Assembly (NCBI RefSeq): GCF_001441535.1
Contig: NZ_LMAU01000002.1
Span: forward strand, 310,001-374,000
Length of the DNA: 64,000 nt
Reading direction: 5' to 3'
From: Tsuneonella troitsensis
Lineage (GTDB): Bacteria; Pseudomonadota; Alphaproteobacteria; Sphingomonadales; Sphingomonadaceae
Within the stretch, counting starts at the first letter, position 1, and every line of letters begins with the position of its first letter. The notes under the pieces were generated by a model. The model was not told where the DNA came from, made no database searches, and was given only the letters and a program-made list of their open reading frames with translations. A program made the position numbers and the translations under genes. Positions 32,641 through 36,160 of the stretch are shown one piece after another.

Positions 32641-33927
32641 CTAAACCGACTTGAACAACGTAATCTGGTGGACATCGATTCCGCCTCCGCGGAAGCCGCC
32701 CTCGCAATACATAAGGTAATAGCGCCAAAGCCGCACGAAACGCTCGTCGAATCTCGCGGGGAGACGACCTTCCGTCACGGCGCGATCGAAGTTCTCACGC
32801 CAGAGGCGCAGGGTCTCGGCATAGTCGGCTCCGAAATCGACCTGGCCGGTCCATTCGAGCCCGCGTTCCTCTGCGAGTGACCGGAACTCGCTCGATTTGA
32901 TCAGCAGGCCGCCTGGGAAGATATACGCCTGGATGAAGTCGGCGCTACCGGCATAGGCTTCGAACAGGCTTTCCTTCATCGATATGTACTGGATCGCGGC
33001 CTTACCGCCCGGTCGCAGATTGCGGGCAATGCAATCCATGAAAGCCGGCCAGTATTCTCGCCCCAAAGCTTCCACCATCTCGACGCTGACGATGGCGTCG
33101 TATTCGCCGAATGTGTCGCGGTAATCTTGCTTCAGAAAGCGGGGATTGGCCGGGCTGGCGGACTTGCTGCGGCAATAGGCCAGTTGCTCGTCCGACAAGC
33201 TGATGGCATCGACCCGCGTCCGACCGCCTTGCGCAGCGGCGTGAGCGAGCATGCCCCACCCGCAGCCGATTTCGAGCAGGCGTTCGGCATCGCTCGCATC
33301 GACGCGATTCAGCATCGCCGTCGCCTTGGTCAACTGGGCGTAATCCAAGGGCGTGAGGAACTGCTGCATTCTCGAAGGACTGTCAGGTCCGCCGAACACG
33401 GCACTGGAATAGCACATGGATTGACCAAGCCAGGCGGCATAGAAGTCATTCCCCAGGTCGTAGTGCGCATGGATGTTTCGCTCGGCGCCCGAATGGGTAT
33501 TGCGGTTGAGCCAATGCGCAAAGCGTGCGGCGAGCCGGAAGGGTCCGCGTGCACGGGCGGTGCCGCCGAGCGACTCGCCGTTCGCCATGAACAGGGCGAA
33601 CAATGGTACCGGATCGGGGCTGTCCCATTCACCGGCGTCCCATGCCTGATACCATCCGATCGACCCGTTGGTCGCGAGCCGGACGAGCGCCCGCCACTCG
33701 CGCAAATCGACATCAGCGTCGAAACCGGGTGCGCGTCCGCCGAGAACGCGGTTGCTTCCATCGGGCAGGCGAGCGCGGATCGAACCAGTTTCCAGCGCCG
33801 CGTCGATACTGTCGAGCAGCTTGTGAAAACCCGGAGCGATCAGACGAGCCACAGGGCCCGGACTGCGCTCGAATCGCGAGCCCGCCGATAAAAGCGAGCC
33901 GCCCCTCTCTACCCCCTTGGCGTGCAT
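32641..33927 (-). CDS. Cyclopropane-fatty-acyl-phospholipid synthase family methyltransferase
   Basis: A 428-residue SAM-dependent methyltransferase of the CFA synthase family, which adds a methylene bridge to unsaturated lipid acyl chains. The N-terminal lipid-binding part precedes HYDLGNDFYAAWLGQSMCYSSA, the SAM site LEIGCGWGMLA and the C-terminal YLMYCEGGFRGGGIDVHQI, all family marks. It starts 35 bases after the photolyase gene on the same strand, so the two are probably one transcript. phr and cfa-like genes are co-regulated in singlet-oxygen and stress responses of other alphaproteobacteria. Confidence 0.92.
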   Translation of the reverse strand: MHAKGVERGGSLLSAGSRFERSPGPVARLIAPGFHKLLDSIDAALETGSIRARLPDGSNRVLGGRAPGFDADVDLREWRALVRLATNGSIGWYQAWDAGEWDSPDPVPLFALFMANGESLGGTARARGPFRLAARFAHWLNRNTHSGAERNIHAHYDLGNDFYAAWLGQSMCYSSAVFGGPDSPSRMQQFLTPLDYAQLTKATAMLNRVDASDAERLLEIGCGWGMLAHAAAQGGRTRVDAISLSDEQLAYCRSKSASPANPRFLKQDYRDTFGEYDAIVSVEMVEALGREYWPAFMDCIARNLRPGGKAAIQYISMKESLFEAYAGSADFIQAYIFPGGLLIKSSEFRSLAEERGLEWTGQVDFGADYAETLRLWRENFDRAVTEGRLPARFDERFVRLWRYYLMYCEGGFRGGGIDVHQITLFKSV

Positions 33928-33962: not shown

Positions 33963-35333
33963 CTAGGTGCGAGAGGCACGGTAGGCGTCCAGCGCACGTT
34001 CGCGCGCCTCGCGGTGGGCGATTATCTTGCGAGGGTATTCGCCGCGCTTGTCATCGTCCGGGTCATGGATCGCATCGTCGCCCAGATGAGCGATTTCAGG
34101 CACATATTCCCGGATATATTCGGCCGCATCGAACTTTTCGCTCTGCGACAGCGGAGCCATGATCCGGGGGAACATGTTGCTGTCCACGCCCGTGCCGGAA
34201 ATCCACTGCCAGTTGACGCCGTTGTTGCCGTAGTCGGCATCGACGAGGCAGTCCCAAAACCAGCGTTCGCCCTCGCGCCAATCAATCAGCAGGTGCTTCA
34301 CCAGGAAACTTGCCGCAATCATCCGTACGCGATTGTGCATCCAGCCCGTCTGCCAAAGCTGACGCATGCCCGCATCGACGATCGGGTAGCCGGTCATCCC
34401 TTTCCGCCACAGCCTCAAGTCAGCTTGAGCGTCCCGGCCGGACCGCCAAAGACCGTCGTATCCGTCGCGGTAGCTATCCTTGGTATAGCGAGGATATTGC
34501 GCGATCACGTTCTGGGCGTAGTCGCGCCAGACCAATTCCTTGGCGAACGTCGCCCAACCCTGTCCCCGGCGCCCTTGGAGGCGATGCCACACTTGAGCAG
34601 GAGAAATCTCGCCCCAGTGAAGGTGCGGAGACAAGCGCGACGAACCGTCGATAGACGGCAGGTTGCGACCCTCGTTGTATTGCGAAACCAAGTCCGACCA
34701 GTACTTGAGCCGATCGTGTGCGGCTGCCTCGCCCACCGACCAGAAGTCGCGCATCGCCCCGGCCCAGTCCGGCTTTGCGGGCAAAAGCTGCCAGTCAGTT
34801 AGCTCGTCTCCATTGGGCCATTTAGCTGGTGCGTCGAGCGCGTCGGGAGCCGGCATCGGCTCCCTGGGCGGCATCTGCTCCAGCACGGCCTTGGAGAACG
34901 GCGTGTAGATCTTGTACGGATCGCCCGCCCCGGTCGTCACCGCGCCTATAGGCAGCAGGTAGTTGCCGTCGTGCAGGACGAGGTCGACCTCCTTTGCCAG
35001 CCTCTCTTGCGCCGCGCGCCACCACGGTTCGTAGTGCCGAACAGCCTGGACCGTCTTCGCCCCGATCTCTTTCGCGATTTTGGCGATTTCCTGCGCGGCA
35101 TCGCCTCGTCGGAAGACGATGCGCGAACCCATCTCCGCGAGGTCGCGCCCCAGACTTTCGAGCGAGTGATGCAGCCACCACCGCCCCGCCCCGCCGATGG
35201 CGTGGTCGCCCGCTGCCGCATCGTCGAGCACATAGACCGGGATGACCGGGCCGACCTTTGCGGCGGCATGAAACGCCGGTTGGTCGGCGAGGCGCAGGTC
35301 ACGGCGCAGCCAGACGATCTGGGGGGAAGTCAT
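33963..35333 (-). CDS. phrB: Deoxyribodipyrimidine photolyase
   Basis: Light-driven repair of UV-induced pyrimidine dimers, class I CPD photolyase, 456 residues. The N-terminal antenna domain (IVWLRRDLRLADQPAFHAA) precedes the FAD-binding C-terminal half, seen in GEISPAQVWHR, ELVWRDYAQNVI, MRQLWQTGWMHNRVRMIAASFL and WQWISGTGVDSNMFPRIMAP. No ribosome binding site precedes the ATG. A symmetric promoter candidate ends only 10 bases upstream, so the mRNA may be nearly leaderless. Confidence 0.95.
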   Translation of the reverse strand: MTSPQIVWLRRDLRLADQPAFHAAAKVGPVIPVYVLDDAAAGDHAIGGAGRWWLHHSLESLGRDLAEMGSRIVFRRGDAAQEIAKIAKEIGAKTVQAVRHYEPWWRAAQERLAKEVDLVLHDGNYLLPIGAVTTGAGDPYKIYTPFSKAVLEQMPPREPMPAPDALDAPAKWPNGDELTDWQLLPAKPDWAGAMRDFWSVGEAAAHDRLKYWSDLVSQYNEGRNLPSIDGSSRLSPHLHWGEISPAQVWHRLQGRRGQGWATFAKELVWRDYAQNVIAQYPRYTKDSYRDGYDGLWRSGRDAQADLRLWRKGMTGYPIVDAGMRQLWQTGWMHNRVRMIAASFLVKHLLIDWREGERWFWDCLVDADYGNNGVNWQWISGTGVDSNMFPRIMAPLSQSEKFDAAEYIREYVPEIAHLGDDAIHDPDDDKRGEYPRKIIAHREARERALDAYRASRT

Positions 35334-35340
35334 CGCTTGC

Positions 35341-35368
35341 GGAACACTCTGGCTGTTGCGAGTGTTCC
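35341..35368. promoter_or_regulatory. Symmetric bidirectional EcfG-type (general stress) promoter
   Basis: GGAACACTC (35341-35349) and GAGTGTTCC (35360-35368) form a perfect 9-base inverted repeat with a 10-base spacer. Read on either strand it gives GGAAC-N17-TGTT, matching the GGAAC-N16/17-(C/T)GTT promoters of the alphaproteobacterial general-stress sigma factor EcfG. Start points would fall near 35373 (plus) and 35336 (minus), within about 3 bases of both start codons. It could alternatively be a repressor operator. Confidence 0.6.
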
Positions 35369-35374
35369 CGCACG

Positions 35375-36160
35375 ATGGACGACATCATCCGCGACCCACA
35401 TCATCTTCCTGCCGAGGGTATCCGCCTGCCCGAACGCGGCTTCGGCATCGACCGGCGCAAGGCGCTGTTTGCCGCCGCTATCTGTTGGACCGGCTTTGCG
35501 ATTATGGTCTGGCTGGTGCTGACCGGGCGCACCGGCGGACTCGACGAAATGGGTCTGCTCGCCGCGCGGCGCGACGGCGATCTCGATTTTGCCGGCAGTC
35601 ACCTGATGCTCGAAATAGTTCGCGACACGACCGCGCTTGGCGGCGTGTTCCTGCGCAACCTGTTCGCGATCGGCGCGGTGGCTGCGCTGCTGTTCCTCTC
35701 GCTCAGGCGAGAAGCGGCGCTGTTCGCGATGACGGTGGTCGGCGGCTGGATAGCTAACAGCGCGCTGAAAGGCATCGTCGGCCGCGAGCGGCCGCAGATC
35801 GTGCCGCACCTGATGGAAGCGGGCGGGGAAAGCTTTCCCAGCGGCCACAGCTTCAATGCGGCGGTCGTGTACGTCGCGATGGCATTGGCGTTCGCGGCGA
35901 TGAGCAGGCGGCATTCGGTGCGCTACACCCTGGTAGCGACCGCGATGGTGCTGTCGGCGATGATCGCGTGGAGCCGGGTCATGCTGGGGGTTCATTTCCC
36001 GAGCGACGTGATCGCCGGTTGGCTGGGCGGCGCCGGCTGGGCGTTCCTGGCGGCGGCGCTGCTGTACGCACCGGCGAAAGCGGCCGCCGAAAGCGCAGTC
36101 GCCGATGGCTTCGACACGGCTAGTTCGCCGCACATCGAAGACCGGGCAGATCGACCGTAA
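35375..36160 (+). CDS. PAP2-family membrane phosphatase
   Basis: A 261-residue, six-helix PAP2 superfamily enzyme that removes phosphate from lipid substrates such as phosphatidic acid or undecaprenyl diphosphate. The three catalytic motifs are complete: KGIVGRERP, SFPSGHSFNA and SRVMLGVHFPSDV. The ATG at 35375 is chosen because it lies just after the candidate promoter; the frame stays open upstream but inside phr. No ribosome binding site is visible. Its 3' end overlaps the convergent hydrolase gene by 41 bases. Confidence 0.9.
   Translation: MDDIIRDPHHLPAEGIRLPERGFGIDRRKALFAAAICWTGFAIMVWLVLTGRTGGLDEMGLLAARRDGDLDFAGSHLMLEIVRDTTALGGVFLRNLFAIGAVAALLFLSLRREAALFAMTVVGGWIANSALKGIVGRERPQIVPHLMEAGGESFPSGHSFNAAVVYVAMALAFAAMSRRHSVRYTLVATAMVLSAMIAWSRVMLGVHFPSDVIAGWLGGAGWAFLAAALLYAPAKAAAESAVADGFDTASSPHIEDRADRP

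Follow-up and report, generated by a model that had tools for sequence, protein, structure and literature searches.

Promoters of the general-stress sigma factor EcfG have been described in Sphingomonas melonis Fr1, where the motif is GGAAC-N17-20-GTT (PMC6599016), and in Sphingopyxis granuli TFA, where GGAAC and GCAAC are the most frequent -35 boxes and where promoters with CGTT, TGTT, CATT and GGTT served as templates in vitro (PMC7083833). As far as their main texts go, these two accounts describe no boxes that serve both directions; bidirectionality, photolyase, cyclopropane and PAP2 are unmentioned there (supplements aside), and divergence comes up only in the S. granuli text, where it concerns gene arrangement. 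Bidirectional promoters have been described for sigma-70 in E. coli, where pseudo-symmetric DNA carries a shared central -10 element flanked by two -35 hexamers (PMC12825309). Here we describe a symmetric EcfG-type site in the short gap between the divergent genes for a DNA photolyase (phr) and a PAP2-family phosphatase (PAP2) of Tsuneonella troitsensis, lying in a stretch of 64,000 nucleotides that was analysed as a whole (the window). From its motif, its position and its conservation, we consider it very likely that this site is a single bidirectional general-stress promoter.

The features of the gap are as follows, each box being named for the gene that it would serve.

33963-35333, reverse strand: phr, DNA photolyase of 456 aa (Pfam PF00875 and PF03441)
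35331-35333, complement: phr start codon
35334-35374: phr/PAP2 gap, 41 bases between the start codons
35341-35368, no strand: whole symmetric site, of which only the outer 5+5 bases are kept in relatives
35341-35349, forward strand: left arm, GGAACACTC
35350-35359, forward strand: centre, TGGCTGTTGC
35360-35368, forward strand: right arm, GAGTGTTCC
35341-35345, forward strand: -35 box GGAAC for PAP2, kept in relatives; its opposite strand carries the phr -10 triplet GTT (complement of AAC)
35363-35366, forward strand: -10 box TGTT for PAP2, N17 after GGAAC
35364-35368, reverse strand: -35 box GGAAC for phr (GTTCC on the forward strand)
35343-35346, reverse strand: -10 box TGTT for phr (AACA on the forward strand)
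35375-35377, forward strand: PAP2 start codon
35375-36160, forward strand: PAP2-family phosphatase of 261 aa (Pfam PF01569)

An earlier sequence-only reading had placed a perfect 9-base inverted repeat in this gap, carrying the EcfG pattern GGAAC-N17-TGTT on both strands, and both observations held. The sequence at 35341-35368 reads GGAACACTC-TGGCTGTTGC-GAGTGTTCC, that is, two perfect 9-base arms flanking a 10-base centre. A motif scan of the window recovered GGAAC-N18-GTT at 35341-35366 on the forward and at 35343-35368 on the reverse strand, which is the same as a GGAAC -35 box followed at N17 by a TGTT -10 box in each direction. The site thus resembles the EcfG promoters of S. melonis and S. 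granuli (PMC6599016, PMC7083833) in its GGAAC -35 box, its CGTT/TGTT/GGTT-like -10 box and its spacing.

The conservation of the site was first viewed from phr, which turned up in 164 of the 199 genomes of the family and in nine of the 11 of the genus (169 genomes together). The sample consisted of 95 loci, one per genome (the 90 best-scoring family matches and five additional genus genomes), leaving out 74 genomes with more distant photolyases as well as second matches within a genome. Genes were taken as adjacent when a divergent partner lay within 400 bases, and a strict symmetric site was defined as GGAAC-N17/18-GTTCC. We observed this site in 28 of the 30 phr loci with an adjacent PAP2 and in none of the 65 others, while dinucleotide shuffles led us to expect 0.04 and 0.045 sites, respectively. 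Where phr stood apart from PAP2, a strict one-way GGAAC-N17/18-GTT directed toward phr was retained at 18 of the 65 loci (0.3 expected from shuffles).

Seen from PAP2, the picture was similar. In this set, which covered 80 of 83 loci from named relatives and whose organisms overlap with those of the phr set, the strict symmetric site was present at 51 of the 67 loci with a divergent phr (within 400 bases) and at none of the 13 without an adjacent phr; nine of these 13 retained a strict one-way site toward PAP2. At four loci of PAP2 without adjacent phr (L051, L052, L055 and L061), the GTT of the one-way site is followed by GC (GTTGC), possibly a backward GCAAC box. Among the relatives covered, then, a symmetric site was seen nowhere except where phr and PAP2 stand back to back. 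The reverse half accompanies the divergent partner in both sets (28/30 vs 0/65, and 51/67 vs 0/13), which supports the earlier proposal that the repeat can be read as an EcfG pattern in two directions.

A tree built from 35 full phr proteins was consulted on the link with gene order: gene order changes five times on it, and the symmetric site likewise five times. Among four independent, well-supported pairs, the site tracks gene order in 3.7 on average and never runs opposite to it.

Several results weigh against a two-way EcfG promoter. Four independent pairs are too few for significance in a sign test, the Fisher tests on the phr and PAP2 sets ignore relatedness, and the phr sample was made up of best-scoring matches, not drawn at random. 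No strict motif was found in 47 of the 65 separated phr loci. The strict site is missing from two of the 30 adjacent phr loci, one of which (L019) has a one-way site toward phr, the other (L247) showing a phr-directed match only once the pattern is widened to GCAAC. It is also missing from 16 of the 67 adjacent PAP2 loci. With any base allowed at position 2 of both half-sites, 13 of these 16 match (L059, L128 and L129 do not) and the total rises to 64 of 67, but 6 of the 13 non-adjacent loci then match too. The variants comprise GCAAC in one half only, at nine Novosphingobium loci, GTTTC in one half at one locus, and GAAAC-N17-GTTTC at three Novosphingobium loci (L110, L114 and L120), where both halves are altered together, as might happen in an operator.

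Nor is the motif enriched by itself. GGAAC-N16..19-GTTCC occurs at 16 places in the T. troitsensis genome vs 21 for a reversed control, the one-way GGAAC-N16/17-CGTT at 41 vs 61, and the symmetric N17/18 motif at 48 vs 85 across the 11 genus genomes. GGAAC-N17/18-GTT has three matches in the window, 2.99 being expected. The bare motif being unexceptional, the argument depends on where the site lies and how it is conserved, which go far beyond chance (28 of 30 adjacent phr loci vs 0.04 expected). By a rough gene heuristic (G+C content at third codon positions, applied to 15 of the 16 genomic places, with no gene called at L007, L012 or L014), opposed genes flank only the phr/PAP2 site (L005) and the nepR-ecfG/kinase site (L008) treated below. 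Two identical 26-base GGAAC...CGTT matches of this genome, at C1:649842-649867 and C5:4083-4108, are perhaps parts of a repeated element.

Next, we examined the anatomy of 70 distinct symmetric sites, comprising 66 distinct sequences. The spacer was 18 in 45 of the sites and 17 in 25; counted by locus, spacers of 17 and 18 occurred 9 and 19 times in the phr set and 22 and 29 times in the PAP2 set. In a scan of spacers from 8 to 30, only 17 and 18 recurred, in agreement with published EcfG promoters, while 12 and 24 were seen at one or two loci. The base preceding GTT is A in one of the 66 sequences in one direction and in none in the other, being otherwise C, T or G. Arms of exactly five bases were found in 47 of the 66 sequences and a 9-base arm in one, the window's own. 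The complementarity of the inner pairs was 0.11-0.35 per position vs 0.27 expected. Since the inner bases pair at chance level, the simplest view of the 9-base palindrome is that chance has lengthened a functional symmetry of five bases; the four further pairs (ACTC/GAGT) probably arose in this way. The conserved unit is GGAAC-N17/18-GTTCC, an EcfG-type motif that is readable both ways. Of the repeat as it had been proposed, therefore, the outer five bases on each side are kept in relatives, while the full 9-base arm belongs to this genome alone.

These dimensions bear on the possibility that a dimeric repressor or activator uses the repeat as its operator, the promoters lying elsewhere or overlapping it. 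The perfect dyad in this genome and the symmetric GAAAC/GTTTC halves at the three Novosphingobium loci would suit such an operator, but pairing in relatives falls to chance level past five bases, and the distance between half-sites varies between 17 and 18, whereas operators usually keep one spacing. An operator of fixed spacing with conserved arms was rejected on these two grounds. Furthermore, the sites that survive without the neighbour gene are one-way and aimed at the gene that remains, and a consensus scan of 35100-35600 found no sigma-70-like promoter or terminator, although such scans miss many promoters. We regard an operator as unlikely. A still more remote reading takes the repeat as an RNA hairpin, an attenuator or stability element inside a longer transcript. 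The 47 bases taken from the window do have a strong fold on either strand (z = -5.1 and -4.7), but over the 70 sites the median folding z was -0.84, with six below -3; strong folding in the window is not general among relatives, and the hairpin was rejected as highly improbable.

The positions of the start codons were considered as well. Both ATGs of the window lie close behind the -10 triplet GTT, at 8 and 9 bases. For the relatives, distances were counted with ATG only: 62 of the 70 sites have the PAP2 ATG 8-11 bases past its GTT, 45 have the phr ATG 8-9 bases past its own, and 43 have both at 8-11 bases. Among the remaining 25 phr starts, one was at 6 bases, 13 were at 18-54 bases and 11 had no assigned ATG. 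A sequence resembling a ribosome-binding site (GGAG/GAGG/AGGA/AAGG type, by a loose test) precedes 11 of the 13 phr ATGs that are at least 18 bases from GTT, and, as the sequence-only reading had it, none is seen by eye before either start codon of the window. At the one-way phr sites, the start was 8-9 bases away in 6 of 18. Four phr loci (L036, L202, L210 and L212) would have leaders of 91-114 bases; similar inverted repeats containing TTCGACA.GCTCAG come after the one-way site there and before the phr start.

Transcription from extracytoplasmic function (ECF) promoters starts about 7-9 bases after the -10 triplet. Combined with the short distances to ATG, this geometry predicts leaders of about 0-3 bases, with 5' ends at the following positions.

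35373-35375, forward strand: predicted 5' end of the PAP2 mRNA, 7-9 bases after GTT, from the usual ECF geometry
35333-35336, reverse strand: predicted 5' end of the phr mRNA, 7-10 bases after GTT, from geometry only

Such short distances have a precedent in S. melonis, where some of the tabulated EcfG-activated genes have the motif 8-10 bases from the coding sequence (#0072, #1765 and #2534; PMC6599016). Leaderless transcripts of Sinorhizobium meliloti are described as all starting with AUG (PMC3616915); the phr/PAP2 site resembles them in having ATG very near the predicted 5' end and no ribosome-binding-like sequence, and differs in that its 5' ends are predicted and not mapped.

The start distances also speak to the idea that the EcfG promoter works one way only, the other half being an ancestral remnant or due to chance. 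In favour of it, among adjacent loci of the PAP2 set strict sites are more often directed at phr (61/67) than at PAP2 (52/67), and both boxes here are TGTT, a -10 box whose substitution for CGTT lowered the in vitro output in S. granuli (PMC7083833), as CATT did. On the other side, both halves are retained together in 28 of 30 and 51 of 67 adjacent loci, and in 43 of the 70 sites both ATGs stand 8-11 bases from GTT. We therefore think it improbable that only one direction works.

Under the two-way promoter that we favour, RNA polymerase with the EcfG sigma factor would bind the site in either orientation, because each GGAAC is an inward -35 box and, on the opposite strand, the GTT -10 triplet of the other direction. 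In one orientation the polymerase would transcribe phr and probably also the gene behind it:

32641-33927, reverse strand: cyclopropane-fatty-acid synthase-like methyltransferase, the gene after phr (Pfam PF02353)

In the opposite orientation it would transcribe PAP2. Pfam bore out the identities that had been proposed for the photolyase, the phosphatase and the cyclopropane-synthase-like gene; the last had a tblastn match in 33 of 35 phr loci (presence regardless of strand). As both orientations occupy the same 28 bases, they should exclude each other. The transcripts are predicted to begin about 0-3 bases from the ATGs. Both mRNAs would then have a minimal leader or none and would have to be translated as such, and the two genes may be induced together under the control of EcfG. 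Moderate promoter strength is to be expected, given that both boxes are TGTT, weaker than CGTT in S. granuli in vitro.

The geometry departs from that of E. coli, with which the site shares its pseudo-symmetric DNA. It has no shared central -10 element; instead, the -35 box overlaps the other direction's -10 box at both ends, an arrangement that the reverse complementarity of GTT and AAC makes possible, and the sigma factor would be of the ECF type. The E. coli two-way promoters are reported to show little competition at basal activity, competition arising once one direction is activated (PMC12825309). Among the listed papers on two-way or symmetric promoters, judged by titles and the beginnings of abstracts with most subscription journals outside the search, we found none on a symmetric EcfG or other ECF promoter; a preprint on DriD-activated promoters in Caulobacter mentions bidirectional promoters (PMC12340889).

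The T. troitsensis genome encodes NepR, with an EcfG-type sigma gene beside it, and a second symmetric site lies there. NepR was sought by a Pfam accession, and PhyR-type sequence by a motif. The nepR-ecfG genes are preceded by the motif of the S. melonis and S. granuli EcfG promoters (PMC6599016, PMC7083833), here GGAAC-N16-CGTT, and this site is itself symmetric (C3:226522-226548; 1501-1527 of L008). It faces nepR-ecfG one way and the gene of a CHASE-HWE histidine kinase the other (kinase by Pfam, in this genome only). Of the genomes searched, 25 of the 29 from the family and all 11 from the genus yielded NepR, giving 37 loci. The symmetric site was upstream of nepR in 22 of them, including all 11 genus genomes, and a pattern match found a kinase-type motif on the opposite side in 17 of the 22; of the five missed by the pattern, three (L163, L166 and L196) show similar sequence. 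At the 15 loci without the symmetric site, none matched the kinase pattern, nine matched a PhyR/EcfG-like pattern and 13 had a one-way site toward nepR. Eight nepR loci (L175-L179, L181, L182 and L185) have PhyR/EcfG-like sequence opposite, and in seven of them the last bases of the nepR site are GTTTC (complement of GAAAC), which may make a two-way site of lesser strength. Kinases of the HWE/HisKA2 type signal into the EcfG pathway, and in S. granuli one of the targets of EcfG is itself an HWE kinase (PMC7083833).

Taken with the second locus, these data make it somewhat probable that the EcfG code, being self-complementary, has been exploited repeatedly by a group of alphaproteobacteria as two-way promoters of 27-28 bases that would force the directional choice of the polymerase: once where the sigma operon faces a putative sensor kinase, and once where the photolyase faces the phosphatase, with two leaderless stress mRNAs arising in the second case.

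A photolyase gene under an ECF sigma factor, predicted here, has a parallel in phrA of Rhodobacter sphaeroides, which is under RpoE (PMC5830050). Deletion of phyR in Rhodobacter left photoreactivation unchanged and raised the activity of a phrA reporter, read in that paper as a moderate effect on RpoE. Literature joining EcfG, photolyase and the general stress response was found only for Rhodobacter and none for Novosphingobium, supplements and most subscription journals being outside the search. If our reading is true, the photolyase joins the EcfG stress regulon in these bacteria, whereas the Rhodobacter phrA is under RpoE (PMC5830050). One site of less than 30 bases would couple two stress genes, with the polymerase forced to choose a direction at each event, and the second locus would couple the sigma operon and a kinase likewise. 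The phr/PAP2 site would then offer a compact model for divergent ECF promoters and for the translation of leaderless stress mRNAs.
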